DNA of 64,000 nucleotides from Lujinxingiaceae bacterium (GTDB lineage Bacteria; Myxococcota_A; Bradymonadia; Bradymonadales; Bradymonadaceae), in the NCBI GenBank assembly GCA_013697635.1, contig JACCWM010000038.1, positions 1 through 64,000 on the forward strand, read 5' to 3'. A program made the position numbers and the translations under genes. The notes below the pieces were generated by a model. That model saw only the letters and a program-made list of their open reading frames with translations, was not told the origin of the DNA and did no database searches. Position 1 is the stretch's first letter, and each line of letters begins with the position of its first letter. Positions 157 through 41,830 of the stretch are shown piece by piece.

Positions 157-3100
157 TCACGCCAGCAGCGCGGCGATTTCGTCGGCGCGGGCCTGGTCGC
201 CGAGGGCGGTCCACTGGGCGTGGGCGAGGCGGTAGGCGCGCTGGGCCAGGGTGCGTTGGAGTGCGTGGGTTGCGAGCTGGGCGGCGCGTTGGAGTAGCTC
301 GGCCTGGTCGCGGTCGACGATGCCGTCGGCGTGGTAGGCCTCGGCGCCGGTGAGGTGGTGGTCGAGTTGGGTCCAGTTGGCGGTGTTGGCGTAGCAGGCG
401 ACCATGCCGGCGTGGCCAAGGCCGATGAAGCTGTGCTGGTTCATCGCGATGAAGATGTCGAGCGATTGGAGCATGAGTTCGGTGGCCTGGCGGTGCTGGT
501 TTTGGGCGAGCAGGACGATGCTCAGATTGAACATGGCCAGGGCCTGCTCGGAGGAGAGCGGGGAGGTCGAGCGCAAGACGCGCTCGTAGCAGGCCGCCGC
601 CTGGCCCAGGTTGTTCTCGAAGCGGTGGAGCTCGCCCAGGGCGTTGAGGGCCTGGCTGGTGCCGGCGGCGTCGCCGATGCGCTCGAAGACGACGATGACT
701 TGCTCGACGAGGGCGCGGGCGCGGTCGTATTGGCGAAGCGATGCGCAGACCATGGCGAGTTGCAGGCGTGAGTGGGCGAGCAGGCGCTGGTCGCCGAGGG
801 TGCCAAAGAGGATGACGGCGGCTTCGTGGTTCTTGCGGGCGAGCTCGAACTCGCCGCGGTGGTGGTGCAGGGCGCCGAGCACGGTGAGGCTGCGGGCCTG
901 GCCTTCGGTGAGGTTCAGGCGCTGGAACAAGGCGTGGGCCTGGGTGATGCAGTCGACGGCGGCGGCGAGCTCGGCGTTGAAGTGCATGAGGTCGGCGCGG
1001 CGAAAGAGGATCTCGGCGACCAGAGCGTCGTGCTGGTGGGCGCGGGCGGGGGGCTCGGCCAGATCGAGGTAGATGGCGGCCTCGTCGAGGCGCTCCTCGT
1101 GGGAGAGCGCGTGGCTGCGGGCGATCCAGCCTTGAATCCTGCGTCGGTCGTCTGGGGCGACGGCCAGGCGCTCGAGGGTGTGCTCGTAGCGATCGAGCAG
1201 GGCGTGGGTGGGGGCGAAGTCGCAGGCGACGCGGTGGTGCTCGGCGCCGGCCAAAAGGGGCGCCAGGGCTTCGTCAAAGGCCTCGGCCTCGAGCAGATGG
1301 CGGGCGATGCGGGGGGCTACGATGCTCGGGGAGGTGCCGTACATGGTGCGCAGCATCATGCCGCAGCCAAAGTGGTGGGCCTTGCGACGGCCGCCCTCGA
1401 GGGCGACGCGCTCGAGGGCTTCGCGAAGCGCGCCGTGCATGAAGCTCCAGCCATGGGCGTGGGTTTTGGCCAGGCTGCGGTTGGCCATGGCCTCGAGCAG
1501 GGCGGGGTTTGGGCGAAGGCCCTGCAGACGGCATAGCGCCTGCCATTCGCGGTGATCGATGTCCTGGCCCAGGGCGGCGGCAAGCTCGAGGGCGAGCAGC
1601 GCAGCGTTGGCGGGGTCTTCGAGCGATTGGCCGACCAGGCCCTCGATGCGCCGGCGCAAGAGAAAGTGGATGTTGTCGGGCAGCGGCGCCTGCTCGCCAT
1701 CTTTGATGCGAAAGCCGGTTGGGCCGACCTCGAGGATGCGCCGGCTGATCCAGTCGCCGACGAGCTGCACGGCAAAGAGCGGGTTGCCGGCCGTGCGCTC
1801 GGCGAGCTGGCGGGCGAGCTCGGGTTCGAGGCCGAGCATCTGTTCGACGAGCGCGCCGTGGGCTGCACTGTCGAGCGGCGCGATCGGCAAGTCGTGGGCG
1901 CCTTGGAGTGCGACGACCCCGTCGAGCTGGAGCTGCGCCAGCCGGGAGTCGTCCAGCGCCTCCTCGCGCAGGGTCATGAGGAGCAGCACGGGCAGCCTGG
2001 TGCGCGCGCCCTCGCTCAACAAATAATGGGCAAAGGCCAGCGTGTCGCTGCCCCATTGCACGTCGTCCAAGGCGAGCAGCACGGGGCGATCTTCGGCCAG
2101 GCGTTGGAGCAGACGCAACAAGACGCGGTGGCGCTCGGCGGGGTTGGCAAAGCGCACCCGCGCGTTGGCCTCGTCGTAGTCGGGATCGGCCGAGGGCGCG
2201 ATCAGCTCGGTGAGCGCGAGCCACTCGTAGAGCTGCTCGCTGTCGACCTCGCCTGTGGCCGGCATCAACTCCTGGATGCGTGAGAGGATCGCGGTTCGGG
2301 GCAGCCCGGTGCAGCGCAGGTGGTTGGCGATCATGCGCGCCACGCCATTGGTCGGGCCGCTGATCGGGCTGTGCGAAGCGCGAAGCACGTGGGCTGCGCC
2401 GAGCTCGTGGGCACGCTCGGCCATCCAGTGTGCGAGGCGCGTCTTGCCGGAGCCGGCGTGGCCGCGCAGCAGCAGCGCAACCGGCGTGTTTGCGCCGGCC
2501 ACGTGGCGAAGGGCGCGCCAGATGCGGTCGCGCTCGTCGAAGCGCGCGACCAGCGGGATCTGGCGAAGCCAGAACAGCCCGAGGCCCACGCCGACGAGGC
2601 TGAGCGCGCGCTCGGCCCGCTCGTTGGTGCGCCAGGTGTCGGGGATGGGCGCAACGCGCCGCTCGGGCAAGCCGCGCGCTGGGCCGTCGGTGGTGGGCCA
2701 GCGGCCCAGCGCGTGTCCGTGGTCGACGATGAGCGAGCCAATCGGCGCGTCGATAATCGGCGCGTCGACCATTGTGGCGTCGTCGGCGTCGGCGACGTTG
2801 ACCAGGGAGCGGCGCGCGATGAACGCGCCGCTCGGTTCACCGAGATCGACGAGCTCGAAGGCGGCGTCGGCCGCGCGCGCATAGCGCTCCGAGGTTTTCT
2901 TGGCGAGCAGGTGGTTGACCCAGCGCGTAAAGCCCTCGGGCACGGCGATCAGGCTGTCGAGCGGGGGTAGCTCTTCGAGCAGGTGGCCGGCGAGGATTTT
3001 TTCGGTGTCGCCGCTAAAAAAGGGCGGCTGGCCGGTGGTCAGCCAGTAGGCCAGACAGCCCACGGCGTAGAGGTCGGTCCAGGGGCCCTGGTCGCGCCAA

Positions 3101-3711
3101 CGACCGCGGATCTGCTCGGGCGCCATGTAGCGCGGCGTGCCCGAGACTTGATGCTCGAAGCTGCCTGTCTGCTCGCTGCCTTCGTGGTGCAGGGCGTGGG
3201 CCAGGCCGAAGTCCGAGAGCTTGAGGCGAAGCCCATCGGGGCCGCGCACCATGAGCACATTGGCCGGCTTGAGATCGCGGTGAATGACGCCGCGGGCGTG
3301 CGAGTAGGCCAGCGCGTCGAGCACAGCGAGCAGAATCGCGCGCACGCCGGGCCACTGCAGGTTGCGAAAGTCCATGTCGCGAAGCGTGTGGCTGGCAAGT
3401 TCCATGGCCAGATAGGAGCTGCCCATCAACAGCTCGCCGCCGCTCCAGCGCTCGACGCTCGCGTCGACGACGCCGCAATCGAAGACCATGACGACGCCGG
3501 GGTGATCGAGGCTTGCAACGGCGCGCACCTCGTCGCGAAAGGCCGCCTGAAAGTGGGGCTCGCGGGCGCGCTCGGCGCTCATCAGCTTGATCGCCACCTC
3601 CACGCCTTGCACCGCGTGCACGGCGCGCCAGACCACGCCCATGCCACCTTTGCCGATAGGCTCGATCAGATCGAAGCCGTCCAGACGCAGCGCTTTTGTG
3701 TTCGTCACCAT
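157..3711 (-). CDS. Ser/Thr protein kinase fused to STAND/AAA ATPase and TPR-like C-terminus
   Basis: Cytoplasmic signalling protein of about 1184 aa. An N-terminal eukaryotic-type kinase domain (about residues 12-280) has a Gly loop GKGGMGVVW, Lys42 in VAIK, HRDLKPAN (His144-Asp146) and DFG at 167-169, followed by MAPEQI. A central ATPase (about 400-720) has Walker A GHAGSGKT and a Walker B-like LLALDDVQW, as in AfsR/MalT-type STAND ATPases. The C-terminal 400 residues are helical TPR-like repeats (for example LTVLGALHHHRGEFELARKN). An in-frame start lies 10 codons upstream, but ATG 3711 overlaps the TGA of the upstream outer-membrane gene (TGATG), so translational coupling favours 3711. All catalytic kinase residues seem intact. 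The substrate is unknown; the coupled membrane protein suggests a shared job, which is inference. Confidence 0.93.
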   Translation of the reverse strand: MVTNTKALRLDGFDLIEPIGKGGMGVVWRAVHAVQGVEVAIKLMSAERAREPHFQAAFRDEVRAVASLDHPGVVMVFDCGVVDASVERWSGGELLMGSSYLAMELASHTLRDMDFRNLQWPGVRAILLAVLDALAYSHARGVIHRDLKPANVLMVRGPDGLRLKLSDFGLAHALHHEGSEQTGSFEHQVSGTPRYMAPEQIRGRWRDQGPWTDLYAVGCLAYWLTTGQPPFFSGDTEKILAGHLLEELPPLDSLIAVPEGFTRWVNHLLAKKTSERYARAADAAFELVDLGEPSGAFIARRSLVNVADADDATMVDAPIIDAPIGSLIVDHGHALGRWPTTDGPARGLPERRVAPIPDTWRTNERAERALSLVGVGLGLFWLRQIPLVARFDERDRIWRALRHVAGANTPVALLLRGHAGSGKTRLAHWMAERAHELGAAHVLRASHSPISGPTNGVARMIANHLRCTGLPRTAILSRIQELMPATGEVDSEQLYEWLALTELIAPSADPDYDEANARVRFANPAERHRVLLRLLQRLAEDRPVLLALDDVQWGSDTLAFAHYLLSEGARTRLPVLLLMTLREEALDDSRLAQLQLDGVVALQGAHDLPIAPLDSAAHGALVEQMLGLEPELARQLAERTAGNPLFAVQLVGDWISRRILEVGPTGFRIKDGEQAPLPDNIHFLLRRRIEGLVGQSLEDPANAALLALELAAALGQDIDHREWQALCRLQGLRPNPALLEAMANRSLAKTHAHGWSFMHGALREALERVALEGGRRKAHHFGCGMMLRTMYGTSPSIVAPRIARHLLEAEAFDEALAPLLAGAEHHRVACDFAPTHALLDRYEHTLERLAVAPDDRRRIQGWIARSHALSHEERLDEAAIYLDLAEPPARAHQHDALVAEILFRRADLMHFNAELAAAVDCITQAHALFQRLNLTEGQARSLTVLGALHHHRGEFELARKNHEAAVILFGTLGDQRLLAHSRLQLAMVCASLRQYDRARALVEQVIVVFERIGDAAGTSQALNALGELHRFENNLGQAAACYERVLRSTSPLSSEQALAMFNLSIVLLAQNQHRQATELMLQSLDIFIAMNQHSFIGLGHAGMVACYANTANWTQLDHHLTGAEAYHADGIVDRDQAELLQRAAQLATHALQRTLAQRAYRLAHAQWTALGDQARADEIAALLA

Positions 3712-6700
3712 CAGTAGCCTCCGCCAAAGAGCAGGTACCACTCGGCGATGCCCTCGTCGTCGATGCCGCGGGCATGGCCAAGGCGAAGGGTATTGAAGAT
3801 GTGGTAGCCAAGCAAGGCGTCGAGCTGAATCTCGGCGCCGAAGCTTCGCCGAAAGCTCGCGTCGGCAAAGAAGCCGTTGTAGGCGGCGCCGGCGTCGGCA
3901 AAGAGCGAGCCCTTGAGCTGGCGAAAAAATAGCGGCAGCGTGGAGAAGCCCTGGTCGATGTCGATCAGCGGAAAGCGGTACTCGAGCTTGAGCACCTGGT
4001 ACTGGCTGCCGCGCATCACCGCCGGCGGATAGCCGCGAAGCGCAAAGCCCAGGCGCGGCTCCTGAAAGATGATGCTCGAGAGCACATCCTGGGGTGTCTG
4101 GCCGCCGATCGTGAACTGGCGCGAGGCTCCAACCCCGGAGCCTGTGATCGCGCCGCGAAGCTGCAGGGCGAACACGTGGCGCTCAACCAAGGGATTGGAG
4201 TGGTAGGCGTCAAAGCCGTAGATCAACGTGGTCAGATCCTGGAGGCTGCCGAGTGTGGTGTTCTGAAAGCTCAACGAGGCACTGGCGGCAACACCTTTTT
4301 CGGTGGTCACCGAGAGCGGGTAGCGGTCGGTGTGCCCGTAGCTGAGGCCAAAGGAGACCTCGTTGTACCAGCCTTTTTGAGGCTCCTGGGGCCGAATGTC
4401 GCCCGGCTCGTGCTCGACCAGCGGGCGCTCGTGCATGCTGGTGTGCTCGAGCTTGAGGCTGGTGTTGAACGAGAAGTTGTGTGAGACGAAGCGCAGCGGA
4501 TAGCTCAGCGTGGCGCGGCCCAGATACTGGCGCTCGGCGTAGGGAACATGGCGACTCTCGGCGATGAGCCCGCGGGTTCGGGGCAGGTTGGCCATCCGTG
4601 CGGTCAAGCCCAGGTTGAACGGCCAGCCGCCGAAGCGATAGCTTGCGCCCAGATTCGCTTGCCGGTCGGTGAACTCGGGCCCGCTCGTCCAGCCCGCGCC
4701 GATCGAGTAGCTGTGGTTGCCGACCGGATCTTCGCCCGTGATCGTGGCCGAGGCGCCCACGCCGCTTGCCAGCAGGCCGAAATCGGGCATGAAGCTCAGC
4801 GGCAGCAGCCATCGCCAGGGCTGATAAGGCCCGGCCTCGAGATCGAGCGAGGGGTCGGCCGGCGGATAGACGATGCGCGAGGGGGCCTCGCGGTTGAGCG
4901 TGACCTTGTGGCGAAGGCGCGTGGGCCGGCGAAAGCGCGCGATCTCAAAGCCGTCGGCCGTGTAGCTCGTCACCCAGAGCCAGTGGCCGTCCTCGCTCAG
5001 GCGTGGGGTGAAGACGCCGTTGATCACGTTGCTCACCTGCCAGACGTCCTCGCTCTCGAGGTCCATGGCGTAGATGTTGAAGATGCCGCTGTGATCGGAG
5101 CTGAAGTAGAGCATGCCGTCAGGGCCAAAAGCGGGGTCCATCTCGTGGGAGGCGCCGCTGGTGAGGCGGCGAAGGCGCTGGTCACCTTCGCCCTCGAGCG
5201 TGATCATCCACAGGTCGCGCTGGCGTGCGTCGAGGCGCCACCAGCTAAAGACCAGCGCGCTGCCATCGGGCGAAAAGGTCGGCATCGAGATCTGCTGCCA
5301 GTGGGCGTCGTCGCTGCCCGGGTGCTCGGTGCCGCTGATGAGCACGTGGGCCACGCCCAGATCGTCGAAGGCGCGCCAGACCAGCTCCATGGTGCCGTTG
5401 AGGTTTCGCACATAGGCGAGCTTTGTGCCGTCTGGCGAGACGGCCGGCTCGCGGGCGCGCTCGGCGCTGGTGAGCTGGCGCGTGGCGTTGGTGGGCGCGT
5501 GCCAGGCGAACAGATCCTGGTAGGCGTAGACTCCGCGCGTGATCGTTGCCTGCGTGTAGATCAAGGTGTCGCCATCGGGCGTCCAGGCCGCGGGCCCGGC
5601 GGCGCTGTCGATGTCGAAGAGTTCTTCGACGCGCTGGCCTGTGCTCGAGGCGGCCACGTAGGCCTCTTTGGAGACCTGATCGGCGCGGTAAAAGCTCACC
5701 TGGTTTCGCCCGGGCCGCACCACGGGGTTGCCCTGGCGGCCGCCCTTGTGCGTGATATGGTCGAGCGATGTCTCGCCGGCCGCCTTGACCGCGATGCGCT
5801 GGGCCTGGGCGATGGCGAGCGCCTCGGCCGTCCACTCCTGCCAAAGCTCGTCGAAGCTCTGGCCGCTGATCTGGCGCGCGCTCTGGTTGAGACTAAAGGG
5901 GATGATCCGCGAGCCATAGATGTGGTTGAAATCGCGAATGAAATCCTCGCCGTGGCGCCGGGCGACATAATCCATGAAGAAGCCGCCGTAGAGATAGGCG
6001 GCGCTTCCCGACGGCCATTGAATCGGCAGGCCCGAGGACTGGCCGAGCGTAAAGAGGCGGTCTTCGAGGGCGGCCGTGCGTACCCACATCTGAAACAGCG
6101 CGCTGTTGATGCGCCCCGTGCCGGTTCGCGCCGACTCGTAGAAGGTGGCGATGCCCTCGGTGTACCAGCGCGGCAAGACCTGGTTGGGGTGCATCTGCTT
6201 GCCGATGAACAGGTTGATAAACTGCGACAAGCCCGGATTGGTGTCCAGGTGCAGGATGTGCACGTACTCGTGGTAGACGAGGATGCGCAGCCAGTCGTCG
6301 TAGTTGCCGAGCACGCTGTCCGGCGGTGGAGCCATACCGTAGATCGTGATCTTGTTGCGCATGAACACGCCCGCCGAGCCGTTGGCCGTATCGAGCTTAT
6401 CGGTCACGTTGATGTGGGTGCGGTTGACCGGCTTCCAGTCCATCAGCGGCGAGAGGATCGCGTGGGCCTCCTCGGCGGCGATGGCCGTGCGCTTGGCCAG
6501 CTCCTCGAGCCCGCTGTAATAATGAACGTAGAAGTGGGGCGTGGTCAGCGTGAAGTAGTCGAGCGCCGGATCGTCGATGGCAAGGGCGTCGGCTGGCGCC
6601 CAGAGCATCGCCCAAAACATCGCCCAGATAAGCGTCGCAAAGAGCGCCAATCTGCCGAGTGGTCCGTGGAGCCATCGGCGACAGTGATTTGAGGATGATG

Positions 6701-6719
6701 AGGGTCGCCACAACTTCAT
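3711..6719 (-). CDS. Outer-membrane protein: gluzincin peptidase domain, TolB/PD40 propeller, surface-antigen barrel
   Basis: 1002 aa. A signal peptide (about 1-47, ending ADALA) directs export. An N-terminal peptidase-MA-like domain holds HEYVH (150-154) and a downstream WYTEGIA whose Glu188 is the expected third zinc ligand. Residues about 310-600 contain PD40/TolB-like strands (AWTPDGDTLIYT, AVSPDGTKLAYV, TFSPDGSALVFS, AFGPDGMLYFSS). The last 350 residues look like a surface-antigen (D15/BamA-type) barrel, with alternating hydrophobic strands and a terminal aromatic residue (FGGGY). Domain order peptidase-propeller-barrel is known in predicted outer-membrane proteins of Myxococcota; the substrate is not known. 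A GAGGAG lies just upstream of ATG 6719. The stop codon overlaps the start of the downstream kinase gene. Confidence 0.9.
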   Translation of the reverse strand: MKLWRPSSSSNHCRRWLHGPLGRLALFATLIWAMFWAMLWAPADALAIDDPALDYFTLTTPHFYVHYYSGLEELAKRTAIAAEEAHAILSPLMDWKPVNRTHINVTDKLDTANGSAGVFMRNKITIYGMAPPPDSVLGNYDDWLRILVYHEYVHILHLDTNPGLSQFINLFIGKQMHPNQVLPRWYTEGIATFYESARTGTGRINSALFQMWVRTAALEDRLFTLGQSSGLPIQWPSGSAAYLYGGFFMDYVARRHGEDFIRDFNHIYGSRIIPFSLNQSARQISGQSFDELWQEWTAEALAIAQAQRIAVKAAGETSLDHITHKGGRQGNPVVRPGRNQVSFYRADQVSKEAYVAASSTGQRVEELFDIDSAAGPAAWTPDGDTLIYTQATITRGVYAYQDLFAWHAPTNATRQLTSAERAREPAVSPDGTKLAYVRNLNGTMELVWRAFDDLGVAHVLISGTEHPGSDDAHWQQISMPTFSPDGSALVFSWWRLDARQRDLWMITLEGEGDQRLRRLTSGASHEMDPAFGPDGMLYFSSDHSGIFNIYAMDLESEDVWQVSNVINGVFTPRLSEDGHWLWVTSYTADGFEIARFRRPTRLRHKVTLNREAPSRIVYPPADPSLDLEAGPYQPWRWLLPLSFMPDFGLLASGVGASATITGEDPVGNHSYSIGAGWTSGPEFTDRQANLGASYRFGGWPFNLGLTARMANLPRTRGLIAESRHVPYAERQYLGRATLSYPLRFVSHNFSFNTSLKLEHTSMHERPLVEHEPGDIRPQEPQKGWYNEVSFGLSYGHTDRYPLSVTTEKGVAASASLSFQNTTLGSLQDLTTLIYGFDAYHSNPLVERHVFALQLRGAITGSGVGASRQFTIGGQTPQDVLSSIIFQEPRLGFALRGYPPAVMRGSQYQVLKLEYRFPLIDIDQGFSTLPLFFRQLKGSLFADAGAAYNGFFADASFRRSFGAEIQLDALLGYHIFNTLRLGHARGIDDEGIAEWYLLFGGGY

Positions 6720-6776: not shown

Positions 6777-7841
6777 TCAGCTCTGTGGGCCGGCCGGTGG
6801 CTGAAAGGTCACGAAGAAGCGGCTCGTGAAGCTCTCGGCGACCGTCGGCGGCAAGCTCACCCGCCAGGTAGCCAGGCTCTGGCGCACGCACTCGACGAGC
6901 TCTGGCGAGGGCATGAGCGTGGAGCTCTCGTTGGTCAGCGTGATGTCGACCTCCGATGCCCGGTAGACCGTGCCATAGCGCTCAAAGCTCATCTCGACGT
7001 CGGCGACCACCAGGTCGCCGGGCAGCTCCTCGAGCGCGATCGCATGGCAGGCGCGCGTGTTCTGGGCCTGGTTGACCAGCGAGCTGGTCAGCTCCGCTCG
7101 TGAGACGCCCTGATCGTCGACGCGCACACGCTCGACGATCAGGTTGGGCCCGCCCCCATCGAGTGGGCTGGTGAACTCGCGCTCGGCCGCAAAGAAGACC
7201 CGGTACTGCACGAGCGCGGTCTCCTCGTTGGTCGGCGGCGCCGAAAACGCGTAATCCCAGGCCTGGCCCATGATGCAGCGTGCCTGAGCGGGCGCGATGC
7301 CATCGCTGTCACCGCGAATGCCCCGCGTCAGTCCGGTCGGCCCGACATAGAGATTGACGAGCATTTCGCCGTCGGCCCGGTAGTCACGCGGCTCGAAGCA
7401 ATCGAGCAGCGCCTCGGACCGCGCCCCCAGCAGCGACTGAGCCTGGGCCACGCTGATGAACTCCGTGGTCTGCACCACCTCGACACCCGCGACAAAGCGC
7501 CACTGCGCCCCCGTCACGTTGATCCCCTGTCCCCGAGCGCCCGGAGCCGGCGCCTCAAGGCGCGGTGGCTGCTGCTGCTGTTGTTGCTGCTGCTGGGTGG
7601 GAGCCTGGCGCTGGGCCACGGTCTGGTCCGACGCCGCTTCGATGCGTAGGCCATCTCGCGAGGCCGCGAGCCCATCTGGGCCACTGCAATAGCGCTCACC
7701 GACCTGCAGGCCCCGCGCTTCGCAGTCCGTCTCACAGGTCTCACATTTGAGTGGGTTTGCCTCAGTCGGCTCGGCCGAGGCGAAGGCAGGCAGCACCAAA
7801 AGGGCCGCGGCGACAAGGGCGGGCAGGATGCGCTGAAACAT
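6777..7841 (-). CDS. AgmX/TonB-tail-like exported protein with poly-Gln tract
   Basis: 354 aa. The ATG at 7841 is preferred because GAGG sits 6 nt upstream and the product then begins with a clear signal peptide (MFQRILPALVAAALLVLPAF...). A longer in-frame reading upstream lacks such support. The mature N-terminus has clustered Cys (KCETCETDC), then a run of nine Gln encoded by CAG/CAA at about 7570-7600, then Pro-rich sequence. Two tandem domains follow (about 130-240 and 245-354), each with an internal Cys and a W or hydrophobic C-terminal strand. They resemble the C-terminal domain shared by AgmX/PglI-type gliding proteins and TonB-like proteins of myxobacteria. Likely periplasmic or envelope; function unknown. 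Confidence 0.72.
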   Translation of the reverse strand: MFQRILPALVAAALLVLPAFASAEPTEANPLKCETCETDCEARGLQVGERYCSGPDGLAASRDGLRIEAASDQTVAQRQAPTQQQQQQQQQPPRLEAPAPGARGQGINVTGAQWRFVAGVEVVQTTEFISVAQAQSLLGARSEALLDCFEPRDYRADGEMLVNLYVGPTGLTRGIRGDSDGIAPAQARCIMGQAWDYAFSAPPTNEETALVQYRVFFAAEREFTSPLDGGGPNLIVERVRVDDQGVSRAELTSSLVNQAQNTRACHAIALEELPGDLVVADVEMSFERYGTVYRASEVDITLTNESSTLMPSPELVECVRQSLATWRVSLPPTVAESFTSRFFVTFQPPAGPQS

Positions 7842-8012
7842 GAAGAACCTCAACCTTTTAAGTAGCCGGCTCTGGTGCATCAACATCGGGCCTTCACAAA
7901 GCCGGCGTTGGGCAAACAACTGGACTTACAGGGGAGGAACGGGTGGGGGGAATTGCCTATTCCTATTATTCACGGTTTTAAGGCCAAGGCACGTCCGCCG
8001 CAGGCTCCGCGA

Positions 8013-8220
8013 GCTCGGCGGCTCCGCCACCTCGAACCGCTTCACCTACGACTACCGAAGAAACAAACCACCTCCCTATCGGGAGGCTCGTGCGTCTTTG
8101 CATGATTTGGCGGCTGGGCACCACCCGGCGGCTGGGCACCACGAGCCGCGCGGAGCGCGGTGGTTTGTTTACCTGGTAGCCGTAGGTGAAGCCGATCGAG
8201 GCGGCGCCAGCCGACGAGGA
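8013..8220. repeat. Long imperfect inverted repeat with internal 16-bp direct repeats
   Basis: The best arms are 8040-8072 and 8159-8191. Each is 33 bp, starts CTTCACCTACG and ends AAACAAACCACC when read inward, with few mismatches. Weaker complementarity extends outward to about 8013 and 8220. The loop contains two copies of GGCGGCTGGGCACCAC (8109-8124 and 8127-8142). The element fills most of the roughly 430-bp gap (7842-8273) between the ABC permease stop and the AgmX-like gene; apart from this, the 9-bp array beside it and the region just upstream of ATG 7841, I see nothing in that gap. It could be a mobile-element remnant or a structured RNA at the 3' end of the ABC operon. Confidence 0.75.
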
Positions 8221-8233
8221 GGCGAAGCCTACG

Positions 8234-8269
8234 GCGATCGTGGCGATTGTCGCGATCGTCGCGATCGCG
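8234..8269. repeat. 9-bp tandem repeat (GCGATCGTC-like), four units
   Basis: Four adjacent units read GCGATCGTG, GCGATTGTC, GCGATCGTC and GCGATCGCG. They lie immediately downstream of the permease stop codon and beside the long inverted repeat. No function is evident. Confidence 0.7.
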
Positions 8270-8273
8270 TCGG

Positions 8274-9998
8274 CTACAGCCGGCTTCGCAGCGAAGCGGC
8301 GCCCATGCGGATGGTGGCCGTGGCCACGAGGAAGGGCAGGGCGAGGCCGGTGAGGGTGACGAGGATGTGCTTGGCATAGATCGGTCGCGCGGAGGCGCCG
8401 ACGTAGATGTGGCCCAGGTAGGTGCTGACGTGGAAGGTGCTCATGATCACGGCCAGGACGACGAACATGCCCAGGATCATGTAGATTACGGCGCCAAAGC
8501 TCGAGGCGATCTTGGCGGCGTTGGGGTTGTGGAACTGGGGGTAGACCGCGCCAAAGCCTACGGCCATGGCGGCGACGCCGACGGTGTTGACCAGCGTGAT
8601 CAGGCTTGCCATCAGGCAGTTGGCCAGGCTCTGGCCGACGAGCAGGTTGGATGACCAGATGATGAACTGGCCGATGATCACGATCGGGCCCATCATGCCG
8701 AGCCACTTGCCGACCAAGAAGCGCTCGAGCGAGATCGGCGCCTGCAAGATCATCCAGAAGCTGCGGCCCTCGACGCTGACGGCGGGAAACAAGAAGCGCC
8801 CGGAGAGGGCGACGACGACAAAGCCGCAGGCCGCCAGGTTAAAGGAGAAGAGGCCGACGTCGCCGAGCAGATTCTCGTTGGCCGCGATCTCGAAGTATTT
8901 GAAGTTGACCAGGTAGATCACCATGATCGCGACGACGACCAGGAGCTGTGACCACTGGCTGGCGTCGCGCAAGAAGACCGAGAGGTCCTTTCGCACGAGC
9001 TGTCCCAGGGTGCTGATCGAGCGCTCGCCATGGGCGGCGATCTGGGCCAGATTCTTGTCCATCGAGCCGCGCACGGTGGTCGTGCGCTTGAACAGCCAGT
9101 CGCGAAAGGCCGTCAAGACGCTGCGGCCGTGGCGGCCTTCCTGGGCCTTGGAGTAGCCGCGCATGTAGTAGCCGCGGTGCAGCCAGGCCGAGACGAAGAA
9201 CAGCGCCAACGGCGTGAGAAACAACAGGGCTATCGACCACTTGTCGACCGCGCCCGAGGAAAACAGCGCCGGGATCACGACGTTGATCGCCCAGTCGCTG
9301 GGCAAATAGGCCGTGGTCGGCGCCGAGAGCATGCGCAACATCTCGCCGATCGAGTCGAAGCTGTCCGGGTTGAGCAGGCGCTCGGGTTGCAGGGCGCGCA
9401 CGACCACAAAGAGCACGGAGAAGGCCACCAGACCAAAGAAGAGCGCGGCGTCACGGGTGCGATCGGCGGCCAAGATGTTAGTCACAAAGAGCGCAAGCAG
9501 GGTGGCGATGCCGGTGGGGATCGCCACAAAGGGGATCATCACCGCGATCAGCAAGACATAAAACCAGGGCGGAGCGCCGACGCCTACGCCGGCGGCGACA
9601 AAAATCGGCATGCCAAAGAGCAGCACCACCCAGGAGGACTGCAGCAGCGACTCGACAAAGCGCGAGGTGAACAGGGCGTCTTTGGGGATCGGGCGCGTGA
9701 CCAGAAACTCCATGTCGTCGGCTAGATAAAAGGTGCTAAAGGCGGTGACGATGTTGGAGAAGACCAGCAGGCCCAAGAAGACCAGGAAGGTTATCGAGAG
9801 CAGCTTTTGCACGAGCAGCTCGCCGACCGGGTCGAGCTTCATCGCTTCTTCGACCACGCGAAGGCTCGCCCGGTAGAGCAGAAACCAGAAGAGCAGGCTC
9901 AGGCCGGCGAAGGCGGGCGCGCGGTGGCGGCCTTCCTCGCTCGAGCGCAGGCTGCCCTTGAGCATGAGAAGCTTGATGCCGAGCAATCGTAGCGTCAC
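8274..9998 (-). CDS. ABC-type transporter permease, ABC-2-like
   Basis: 574 aa integral membrane protein with many hydrophobic segments (for example SITFLVFLGLLVFSNIV, VLLIAVMIPFVAIPTGI, LVVVAIMVIYLVNF, MILGMFVVLAVIMS). It starts with GTG at 9998, which shares GTGA with the stop of the ATPase gene, so the two are translationally coupled. Together they form an ABC transporter in the inner membrane. The large size and loops resemble ABC-2 exporter permeases; the substrate cannot be told. The transglutaminase-like protein encoded upstream is probably part of the same transcript. Confidence 0.88.
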   Translation of the reverse strand: MTLRLLGIKLLMLKGSLRSSEEGRHRAPAFAGLSLLFWFLLYRASLRVVEEAMKLDPVGELLVQKLLSITFLVFLGLLVFSNIVTAFSTFYLADDMEFLVTRPIPKDALFTSRFVESLLQSSWVVLLFGMPIFVAAGVGVGAPPWFYVLLIAVMIPFVAIPTGIATLLALFVTNILAADRTRDAALFFGLVAFSVLFVVVRALQPERLLNPDSFDSIGEMLRMLSAPTTAYLPSDWAINVVIPALFSSGAVDKWSIALLFLTPLALFFVSAWLHRGYYMRGYSKAQEGRHGRSVLTAFRDWLFKRTTTVRGSMDKNLAQIAAHGERSISTLGQLVRKDLSVFLRDASQWSQLLVVVAIMVIYLVNFKYFEIAANENLLGDVGLFSFNLAACGFVVVALSGRFLFPAVSVEGRSFWMILQAPISLERFLVGKWLGMMGPIVIIGQFIIWSSNLLVGQSLANCLMASLITLVNTVGVAAMAVGFGAVYPQFHNPNAAKIASSFGAVIYMILGMFVVLAVIMSTFHVSTYLGHIYVGASARPIYAKHILVTLTGLALPFLVATATIRMGAASLRSRL

Positions 9999-10849
9999 AC
10001 CTGACCCCCGGTGTCCGTGGGCGGCGCTTCTTCAAAGATCGAAGGGCCGTCGCCCTGGCCGAAGCGCTCGGCAACCGCGGCGCGGCGCTCGTCGACGTTC
10101 TCCTCGGTCAGACGCAAGAAGACGGCCTCGAGCGAGCCATTGCCCTCGCCAGACTCGATGCGCAGCTCGTTGAGCGTGCCGCGGGCGATGATGCGCCCGT
10201 GGTTGATGATGATCAGCTGGTCGCAGATGTCCTCGGCCACCTCCAGGGTGTGCGTCGAGAGCAGGATCGTCATGTCGTGCTCGTCGGCCAGGCGGCGAAA
10301 CAGCGCCTTGATCAGGCGGTGGCCCTTGGGGTCGAGGCCGACCATCGGCTCGTCGACGACGAGCAGCTTGGGCTTTGGCAACAAGGCCCCGGCAAAGACC
10401 AGGCGCTGCTTCATGCCGTGCGAGAAGCTCTCGATCAGGCTGTCGCCCCACTCGCTGAGCTCGAAGGTGGCGAGCAGCTCGGGGATGCGCTCGGCGGCCT
10501 CCTTGCCGGGGATCTGGTAGAGCCCGCTGACAAAGCGCAGATACTCAAAAGCCGTGAGCTTGTCGTAGACGTAGGGCCTGTCGGGGATAAAGCCGGTCAG
10601 GCGCTTGGCGGCCACGTCGTCTTTGGCCAGATCGTGGCCGTCGATGATGATCGAGCCCGCCGTGGGGCGCAAAAGCCCGGTGATCATGCGCAGGGTCGTG
10701 GTCTTGCCGGCGCCGTTTGGGCCGAGCACGCCAAAGACCATGCCGTAGGGCACTTCGAGGCTGATCTTGTCGACGGCGGTGAACTTGCCGTACTTCTTCT
10801 CGAGATTGTCGAGAACGACGATCGAGCGTGGTTTTTCTGCGTGGGTCAT
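9995..10849 (-). CDS. ABC transporter ATP-binding protein
   Basis: 284 aa. It has Walker A GPNGAGKTT, the Q-loop region, the signature SFSHGMKQRL (LSGGQ variant), Walker B LLVVDEPMVGLDP and the H-loop STHTLEVAED. This is the organisation of ABC-2-type exporter ATPases. ATG 10849 (MTHAEKPR) is preferred to the in-frame TTG two codons upstream. The 3' end overlaps the permease start by 4 bp. The gene begins 26 bp after the transglutaminase-like gene ends, so the three form an operon. The last 40 residues extend beyond the usual domain and are acidic. Confidence 0.95.
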   Translation of the reverse strand: MTHAEKPRSIVVLDNLEKKYGKFTAVDKISLEVPYGMVFGVLGPNGAGKTTTLRMITGLLRPTAGSIIIDGHDLAKDDVAAKRLTGFIPDRPYVYDKLTAFEYLRFVSGLYQIPGKEAAERIPELLATFELSEWGDSLIESFSHGMKQRLVFAGALLPKPKLLVVDEPMVGLDPKGHRLIKALFRRLADEHDMTILLSTHTLEVAEDICDQLIIINHGRIIARGTLNELRIESGEGNGSLEAVFLRLTEENVDERRAAVAERFGQGDGPSIFEEAPPTDTGGQV

Positions 10850-10875
10850 CGCCAACTCATGGGTGTCATGCGTGG

Positions 10876-12384
10876 TTATTCGATTTTGAGCCGACCGAGA
10901 ACGTGCACAAAGCTTGGGTGCTCGGGCTCGGCGGAGGTGAAGAACTGAATGTGCTTTCGACTCACGCTCAGATCCGCACGGGTGGCGTCGAGGTCGACAA
11001 ATTGTTTGCCATCAAAGTACTGGACCCACTGATGGGGCGTCATGCGATCGCCTTCGTCGATCACGCCGTGCACAAAGCGCGTGGCGATGCCCAGGCTGCG
11101 CAGCGCGGCGACGGTGATCAGGGCATACTCGGTGCAATCGCCGCTGCCCAGTTCGAGGGCCTGGGATGCCGCCAAAACGGCGATGTTTGGCGCCGGCTTC
11201 AGGGCCCCGCGTACGGCCTTGGCCGCGGCCTTGGCGCGCTCGCTGGGAGTGTCCTCGGCGTCGATGCCCTCGAGCAAGGCGGTGATGTTGCTGGCATCGC
11301 CGTCGACGCGCGCCGTCATGGCCACAAGCTCGGGATCGGGGATGACATCGGGTGCAAAGGCGTCGGCCTCGGGCATCATCGTGATCACGGCTCGCTCGCC
11401 ATCGCGGCTGACCAGGCGCTGGCGCCCACTCTCGAGCACCAGACCCATGGCGTCGTCGATGCCGCTGATCACGTACTGGCCGACGACCTTGGGTGGCGCC
11501 TCGCTCTCCGAGCCGCGCGTGGTGTTGGCCAAAAGGTTGAGCGCGGCGTCGAGGCTAAAATCGACGCCTTTGGCCTCGCCGCCCTTTTTCTGGTCACGCT
11601 CTTTGGCCTGGCGGCGCATGCTCATGGCCTGGGCACGGCCGAGCTCGGCCGGTACGCGCGAGCCGACGATGCCAAGCGGAAAGGCCTGAATCAGCACGTT
11701 GCCTTGATCGTCGGTGACGACGTTGAGGCTGGTGCCGGCCACGCGCTGGCGAAACTGGTGGGCCGAGTAGGCCTGATCGTAGACCGTGGTCTCGGTTGGG
11801 CCGACGTACTCGATGGTCATCTCGGTCATGCCCATCGACGAGGGGTCGAAGAACTCCTGGCGGATGATCGCGCCCGGCTTGAGATCGGGGCTGGCCAGCA
11901 CCTGGTTGAGCGCGCTGGCCGCAAGCCTGGGCGGCTCCTTGAGCTCGATGCGCTTTTTGGACGAGCTGCCGGCGGCGTAGGTCGTCAGGTTGATGTGCGT
12001 GTCGCTGGCCTCACCGAGCGCGCGAAAGGTCTGGCCCATGGCGCCAATCTCGGCGCTGAAGGTGCGCAAGATCGCGTCGTTGTTCACCGAGGCCTTGATC
12101 GTCGTCTCGATGCGCTGGTCGAGGCCCATCATCGCGATGTTCATCAGCATCTGGTACTCGAGCAGCCAGCCGTCGGCCAACTGCGTGCGCACCTCGTGGA
12201 TGAAGCCCACGGCCGTGTCGTCGCGCCGAAGCACCATCCACGACTCGCCCTCGGTCATCAGCACCTGTGAGCTCAAGTTGTGCGTCGAGGCCGATCCGCC
12301 GCCCAGGCGCTCGTGAGCGTAGAGGCCCACGACCGTGAGCCACGCTGCGACGGACAAGACCCCGATGACATCAAATAGACGCAC
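10876..12384 (-). CDS. Transglutaminase-like (papain-fold) membrane-anchored protein
   Basis: About 502 aa. The start is a GTG at 12384: a perfect GGAGGA lies 7 nt upstream (12391-12396), and the product begins with a membrane segment (RLFDVIGVLSVAAWLTVVGLY). An ATG 20 codons upstream lacks such a site. The C-terminal third holds a transglutaminase core: Cys in LGSGDCTEYA, His in TPHQWVQYFDG and Asp in FVDLDATRAD. The long N-terminal half is beta-rich and unrecognised. Anchored in the inner membrane with the core outside, it may act as a protease, amidase or binding protein. It is first in an operon with an ABC exporter ATPase and permease. Confidence 0.85.
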   Translation of the reverse strand: MRLFDVIGVLSVAAWLTVVGLYAHERLGGGSASTHNLSSQVLMTEGESWMVLRRDDTAVGFIHEVRTQLADGWLLEYQMLMNIAMMGLDQRIETTIKASVNNDAILRTFSAEIGAMGQTFRALGEASDTHINLTTYAAGSSSKKRIELKEPPRLAASALNQVLASPDLKPGAIIRQEFFDPSSMGMTEMTIEYVGPTETTVYDQAYSAHQFRQRVAGTSLNVVTDDQGNVLIQAFPLGIVGSRVPAELGRAQAMSMRRQAKERDQKKGGEAKGVDFSLDAALNLLANTTRGSESEAPPKVVGQYVISGIDDAMGLVLESGRQRLVSRDGERAVITMMPEADAFAPDVIPDPELVAMTARVDGDASNITALLEGIDAEDTPSERAKAAAKAVRGALKPAPNIAVLAASQALELGSGDCTEYALITVAALRSLGIATRFVHGVIDEGDRMTPHQWVQYFDGKQFVDLDATRADLSVSRKHIQFFTSAEPEHPSFVHVLGRLKIE

Positions 12385-12546
12385 GCCAAATCCTCCAACT
12401 CGATTGATGCCTGCTTCAGCCCGGCCGATTGTAGTGCAATTCACTCAGCAACCAAAGCTGTAAAGCGATGTTTCCCCTTGATGGCCGGGGGCAGGGCAGG
12501 CAAGATGAGAGCGTCTAAACGCGCACCACACTTGGAGCTTTTGGCC

Positions 12547-41756: not shown

Positions 41757-41830
41757 TGACCCCGGCGCGGTTCGAACGCGCGACCCTCAGATTAGGAATC
41801 TGATGCTCTATCCAGCTGAGCTACGGAGTC
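41757..41830 (-). tRNA. tRNA-Arg (CCT anticodon)
   Basis: The minus strand folds as a full cloverleaf of 74 nt: acceptor GACTCCG/CGGGGTC with discriminator A, D-arm GCTC...GAGC, anticodon stem TCAGA/TCTGA with loop TTCCTAA (anticodon CCT), and T-arm GCGCG-TTCGAAC-CGCGC. CCA is not encoded. It reads AGG codons. Confidence 0.96.

Follow-up and report, generated by a model that had tools for sequence, protein, structure and literature searches.

TolB itself, the propeller protein of the Tol–Pal system, is a free periplasmic protein. A survey of the Omp85/TpsB superfamily published in 2014 recognises a WD40-Omp85 subfamily, which its text proposes to be reminiscent of a BamA–BamB fusion (PMC4104836). 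Overlapping gene pairs of the ATGA or TGATG type are described as common in prokaryotes (PMC6728339). In E. coli, complex subunits are reported to be encoded by 30.4% of close gene pairs as against 6.8% of distant pairs and short overlaps to be enriched for them, with 69.6% of close pairs encoding no complex (PMC10666635).

The stretch of DNA analysed here, referred to as the window, comprises 64,000 nucleotides from a Lujinxingiaceae bacterium (contig JACCWM010000038.1 of assembly GCA_013697635.1). On its minus strand a gene for an outer-membrane protein with a peptidase, a propeller and a barrel (the barrel gene) is followed by, and overlaps, a gene for a protein kinase. The titles and abstracts searched yielded no description of a peptidase–propeller–Omp85 protein, nor did the literature searched turn up a tested function for the barrel protein. 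The account we favour, with a probability of roughly 0.8, is one of local gene order: a conserved protein of the WD40-Omp85 kind stands before an unrelated kinase, and no functional partnership between the two is needed. A striking stop/start overlap between genes whose products belong to different compartments can, as here, reflect local gene order and not a machine.

The outer-membrane protein and its family

The original prediction had read the two genes as encoding an outer-membrane peptidase–propeller–barrel protein and a kinase with a STAND ATPase and a TPR tail. This domain reading is correct for both proteins, with the ATPase best called STAND-like, as borne out by Pfam matches and motifs (Table 1). 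The HEYVH...E site that had been called intact is indeed so: H150, E151, H154 and E188 are invariant across the 38 homologous sequences of alignment A1, for which 9 of 46 loci (L033–L078) were omitted because they were partial or repeated another locus exactly or nearly so (L033, L034, L037, L043, L046 and L055–L058). E188 is presumed to be the third zinc ligand. The conserved HExxH motif with its distal Glu, together with the fold, is that of the gluzincins of clan MA; none of the Pfam peptidase families reaches its own cut-off for this protein.

Table 1. Features of the barrel gene, the kinase gene and the genes upstream of them in the window
Feature	Position in window	Strand	Evidence or remarks
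Ser/Thr kinase–AAA_16 ATPase–TPR protein, 1184 aa	157..3711	(-)	Pfam
Walker A GHAGSGKT of AAA_16/STAND-like ATPase	2440..2463	(-)	motif intact
Protein kinase domain, residues 13-278	2878..3675	(-)	catalytic motifs intact
TGATG stop/start overlap	3709..3713	(-)	1-base overlap, barrel gene / kinase gene
Outer-membrane protein, 1002 aa: signal peptide, gluzincin-type peptidase, TolB-like propeller, Omp85-type barrel	3711..6719	(-)	
Omp85-type beta-barrel, ~residues 648-1002	3714..4778	(-)	PF01103 3.1e-6; BamA 8xnb 5e-5; 5 strands after RGY loop in low-confidence model
GGAGG, Shine-Dalgarno-like site	3718..3722	(-)	within last codons of barrel gene; 6 nt before kinase ATG
LRGY, residues 894-897	4029..4040	(-)	R895 nearly invariant, G896 invariant (38 sequences)
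TolB-like beta-propeller, ~residues 330-606	4902..5732	(-)	PD40 1.1e-20; TolB chains 2.5e-29 (profile A1); Foldseek top = TolB
WYTEGIA, residues 185-191 (WYTEG = 185-189)	6147..6167	(-)	E188, G189, A191 invariant, 38 sequences
HEYVH zinc-site motif, residues 150-154	6258..6272	(-)	H150, E151, H154 invariant, 38 sequences
Predicted Sec signal peptide, residues 1-47, ending ADALA	6579..6719	(-)	hydrophobicity peak residues 21-43; cleavage site inferred by eye
380-aa protein, weak AgmX/PglI-type C-terminal match	6777..7919	(-)	upstream of barrel gene; homologue near it in 7/20 family relatives
ABC transporter permease (PF16949)	8274..9998	(-)	homologue near barrel gene in 9 of the 12 family relatives having 6 kb or more on either side
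ABC transporter ATPase	9995..10855	(-)	Pfam and neighbourhoods
Transglutaminase-like protein, member of ABC permease/ATPase cluster	10876..12444	(-)	Pfam and neighbourhoods

Assignment of the C-terminal part to the Omp85 superfamily follows from the barrel-domain match and the LRGY sequence, which we take to resemble the loop-6 RGF/RGY motif of Omp85 proteins. The Pfam match of the family to this barrel is weak. For the window protein it scores 27.4 bits in PF01103 against a cut-off of 24, the lowest of seven Omp85 matches above cut-off in the genome, and across the family it is found at E<=0.01 in 22 of 38 members, PD40 being found in all 38. Pfam detected no POTRA domain in the barrel protein; a WD40-type propeller takes the place of such domains, which is the defining trait of the WD40-Omp85 subfamily.

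A structure model built from 6 sequences (pLDDT 61.5, pTM 0.48) gave its best fold matches to TolB. This low-confidence model has 15 barrel strands, 5 of them past the loop, as against the 16-stranded barrel by which the superfamily is defined. A model of the peptidase part only (pLDDT 64.1, pTM 0.65) placed M1 aminopeptidases and the peptidase domains of M9 collagenases at the top of its fold matches, with TMq of about 0.5 and E-values of 1e-4 to 1e-3. The confidence of both models being low to medium, the family assignment leans mainly on motifs and profiles. Judged from its domains, the zinc peptidase and propeller most likely lie in the periplasm, and the whole protein may act in outer-membrane quality control.

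The family to which this protein belongs is old and widespread, with relatives in most of the genomes searched across the phylum. Matches at E<=0.001 were obtained in 89 of 95 genomes, the present one included; the weakest could be due to nothing more than the propeller. Every one of the 20 relatives from the same family of bacteria was matched at E 8e-125 or better, one relative locus (L034) is from Lujinxingia vulgaris, and two loci from Bacteroidota (L037 and L038) carry the barrel family. A distant second peptidase–propeller–barrel paralogue was also observed (locus L134, positions 2676-5780, G000:C7), with HEAVH, FWEGLA and LRGY motifs and, close to the beginning of the protein, a lipobox-like LGAC; weak second matches of this kind occur in several family relatives.

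The kinase–ATPase–TPR protein

The second protein has the features of a Hanks-type Ser/Thr kinase. Its glycine loop (GKGGMG) and its HRDLKP, DFG and APE motifs are intact, and Pfam matches were obtained to Pkinase (PF00069, 2.3e-39), AAA_16 (1.9e-12, over the cut-off) and TPR_12 (1e-12). The reading of its ATPase part as a STAND domain draws on the AAA_16 match and the Walker A motif; nSTAND_NTPase5 falls below its cut-off and the best PDB sequence match reaches only E 0.46.

This kinase belongs to a large, lineage-expanded paralogous set, and its nearest kin are found elsewhere. The genome contains 118 kinase matches, 116 of them above cut-off, and the kinase query finds matches in all 57 genomes, the present one included. 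The protein closest to it, at 49% identity, is a paralogue encoded on a different contig (C189) of the same genome, whilst sequences from relatives in the kinase tree set share 36–47%. The exact position of the window kinase in this tree lacks firm support (values near it, 92/91 and 83/52), and the location of its kin is instead drawn from gene neighbourhoods, several of which are short contigs with little flank. The 26 loci around kinases and paralogues (L079–L104) yielded nothing closely homologous to the barrel protein. Two distant barrel matches do occur there, in loci of the present genome (L079 and L082) that were fetched because of those matches.

Two further ideas about the kinase were set aside. 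A recent foreign origin is not supported, the base composition of the gene being similar to that of its neighbours. Nor is the kinase regarded as part of a defence system: the PADLOC matches that came up extend over its kinase domain and no further.

The junction, its neighbourhood and the origin of the pairing

At the junction the minus strand reads GGCGGAGGCTACTGATGGTG, and a single A serves both as the last base of the barrel gene's TGA and as the first of the kinase gene's ATG; the shared base and both open reading frames are as had been predicted. Alternative starts for the kinase are possible, at a GTG 3 nt past the ATG or at an upstream GTG at 3741. Overlapping starts are allowed at 6 of the 25 same-strand junctions in the window, as delimited by a rough ORF picker. 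Amongst kinase–ATPase genes of this genome the tight placing is unusual. Of the 12 that were examined, only the window kinase has a start that overlaps the preceding gene, a count to be read with the fact that five of the 12 have no same-strand upstream gene within reach, partly because of contig ends. No RNA structure above chance was detected at the junction (z -0.08), and a promoter scan, with 1 found and 1.1 expected, was uninformative.

A short overlap with a site for reinitiation, here TGATG and GGAGG, is one mark of a translationally coupled pair. The presence of the overlap together with a good Shine–Dalgarno-like site makes it plausible that the barrel and kinase genes are translationally coupled. 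Such an overlap raises the chance of a functional link without making such a link likely.

Gene order in relatives was sampled at 40 loci (L039–L078), 20 from the same family and 20 from more distant relatives, none being of the same genus. Loci were considered testable if 1.5 kb or more of DNA followed the barrel gene, as was so for 34 of the 40 (18 of 20 family and 16 of 20 more distant loci), the six falling below this length being L053, L058, L069, L073, L075 and L078. By the yardstick that the original prediction itself named, adjacency in relatives, its interpretation fails: 0 of the 34 testable loci have a kinase following the barrel gene on the same strand. A conserved kinase–barrel unit is rejected on this ground, and the pairing seems to be accidental and local and not a conserved machine. 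Kinases do occur beside the barrel gene elsewhere. In three order-level relatives (G021, G022 and G025; loci L061, L073 and L074) a different kinase lies divergently, 190–300 bp upstream; in two of these it has a membrane helix and a PEGA-like tail, named by eye, the third being cut off. At locus L068, two kinases lie downstream on the opposite strand. In four loci from distant relatives (L063, L064, L065 and L069) a lipoprotein-like gene on the same strand was observed at most 12 nt after the barrel gene, overlapping it as TGATG in L064.

The usual family neighbours of the barrel gene are instead an ABC exporter (permease and ATPase) and a transglutaminase. The count of neighbours draws on the 12 family loci flanked on either side by 6 kb or more, and in seven of the nine relatives with the permease nearby it lies upstream on the same strand. 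An imperfect inverted repeat at 7985-8290 of the window, with 53-nt arms, 81% complementary and 76 nt apart, lies between the permease and the 380-aa gene. It belongs to an interspersed family with 38 matching stretches in this genome, a figure that includes the copy in the window and counts palindromic copies on both strands. Rfam matches the window once, at a tRNA gene on the minus strand (41757-41830).

If the pairing is a matter of local gene order, the life of the two proteins may be pictured as follows. The outer-membrane protein would be exported by Sec and then inserted as an Omp85-type barrel, with peptidase and propeller in the periplasm probably clipping or checking substrates near the outer membrane. 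The kinase would be translated off the barrel-gene message by termination and reinitiation at TGATG, aided by GGAGG, a step which the sequence makes plausible. It would then act independently in the cytoplasm, where, to judge from the domain types, the TPR/ATPase part would do the sensing and the kinase would deliver the output. The overlap would be a trait of this lineage. The original prediction had described coupling across compartments as odd, yet an operon with products in different compartments needs no special explanation. Whilst its domain reading stands, the functional link it implied between barrel protein and kinase is not supported, given the adjacency count of 0/34 and the membership of the kinase in a large paralogous set.

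A more detailed form of the local-gene-order explanation is that recombination placed the kinase gene between the barrel gene and the convergent gene that usually lies downstream, and that the kinase now uses the expression signals of the barrel gene without any functional link. Most of the family relatives checked have a convergent gene directly after the barrel gene, and in several a hydrolase-like gene comes next. The homologues in this genome of the convergent and hydrolase-like genes of one such relative (L039) lie at the end of contig C158, which terminates about 340 nt beyond the convergent gene; the window contig terminates 156 nt beyond the kinase. The two ends could be neighbours between which the kinase was inserted. 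However, they share no sequence, and the base composition of the kinase gene gives no sign of recent foreign origin. We regard the insertion as a tentative proposal, with odds somewhat short of even.

Another reading overlaps with local gene order in treating the kinase as irrelevant, and takes the barrel protein to be a single-chain assembly or quality-control machine in which protease, propeller and barrel are combined and which is the interesting part of the locus. The invariant zinc-site residues and conserved loop motif in 38 sequences argue for it, as do the TolB-like and M1/M9-like folds and the likening of WD40-Omp85 proteins to a BamA–BamB fusion (PMC4104836). The function is read wholly from domains, however, and both the weak Omp85 match and the low to medium confidence of the models weigh against it. 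Such a machine is accordingly thought rather doubtful.

It is considerably less probable that the pair forms a lineage-specific envelope-signalling unit, in which co-translation would set the ratio of protease to kinase and the kinase would report export or assembly of the barrel protein in the cytoplasm. The overlap with its GGAGG site, the placing of only 1 of 12 examined kinase–ATPase genes in this way and the published enrichment of short overlaps for interacting products (PMC10666635) are what such a unit would have in its favour. Against this, the adjacency is not conserved, and the products, which lie in different compartments, have no shared domain and no known contact. A bolder version is highly improbable: that a single-chain, protease-armed Omp85 machine has, in this lineage, used translational coupling to capture a dedicated kinase–ATPase, whereby every synthesis of the outer-membrane protein would also make a cytoplasmic reporter of its export or assembly.

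Comparison with described systems

The kinase, with its kinase domain, AAA_16 ATPase and TPR tail in a single chain, resembles PknK-like and other Hanks-type kinases with STAND/TPR tails, alongside which we presumptively name it. It differs from the PknK-like kinases in reaching no NCBIfam cut-off and in belonging to a large paralogous set.

The peptidase domain shares HExxH, a distal Glu and a TMq of about 0.5 with the peptidase domains of M1 aminopeptidases and M9 collagenase, although identity is low (11–16%) and these matches come without a Pfam peptidase family above cut-off. We name it M1/M9-like, on the assumption that these are gluzincins of clan MA. The propeller finds its best PDB match in TolB by both sequence and fold; unlike TolB, it is fused between a peptidase and a barrel. 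An analogy, and only an analogy, can be drawn with BepA, the outer-membrane quality-control protease of E. coli, which published accounts describe as a zinc metallopeptidase at the barrel-assembly machine. BepA differs in being of family M48 and separate from any barrel.

The closest likeness is to the WD40-Omp85 subfamily as published, which the outer-membrane protein fits, having a POTRA-less Omp85-type barrel behind a TolB-like propeller (PMC4104836). It differs in its N-terminal gluzincin-type zinc peptidase, which goes unmentioned in the main text of the survey, where the term 'peptidase' occurs 0 times (PMC4104836). The conserved peptidase domain is a modest addition to the published description. 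It is this outer-membrane protein that merits attention, its Omp85-type barrel being preceded by a TolB-like propeller and, ahead of that, by a conserved zinc peptidase.
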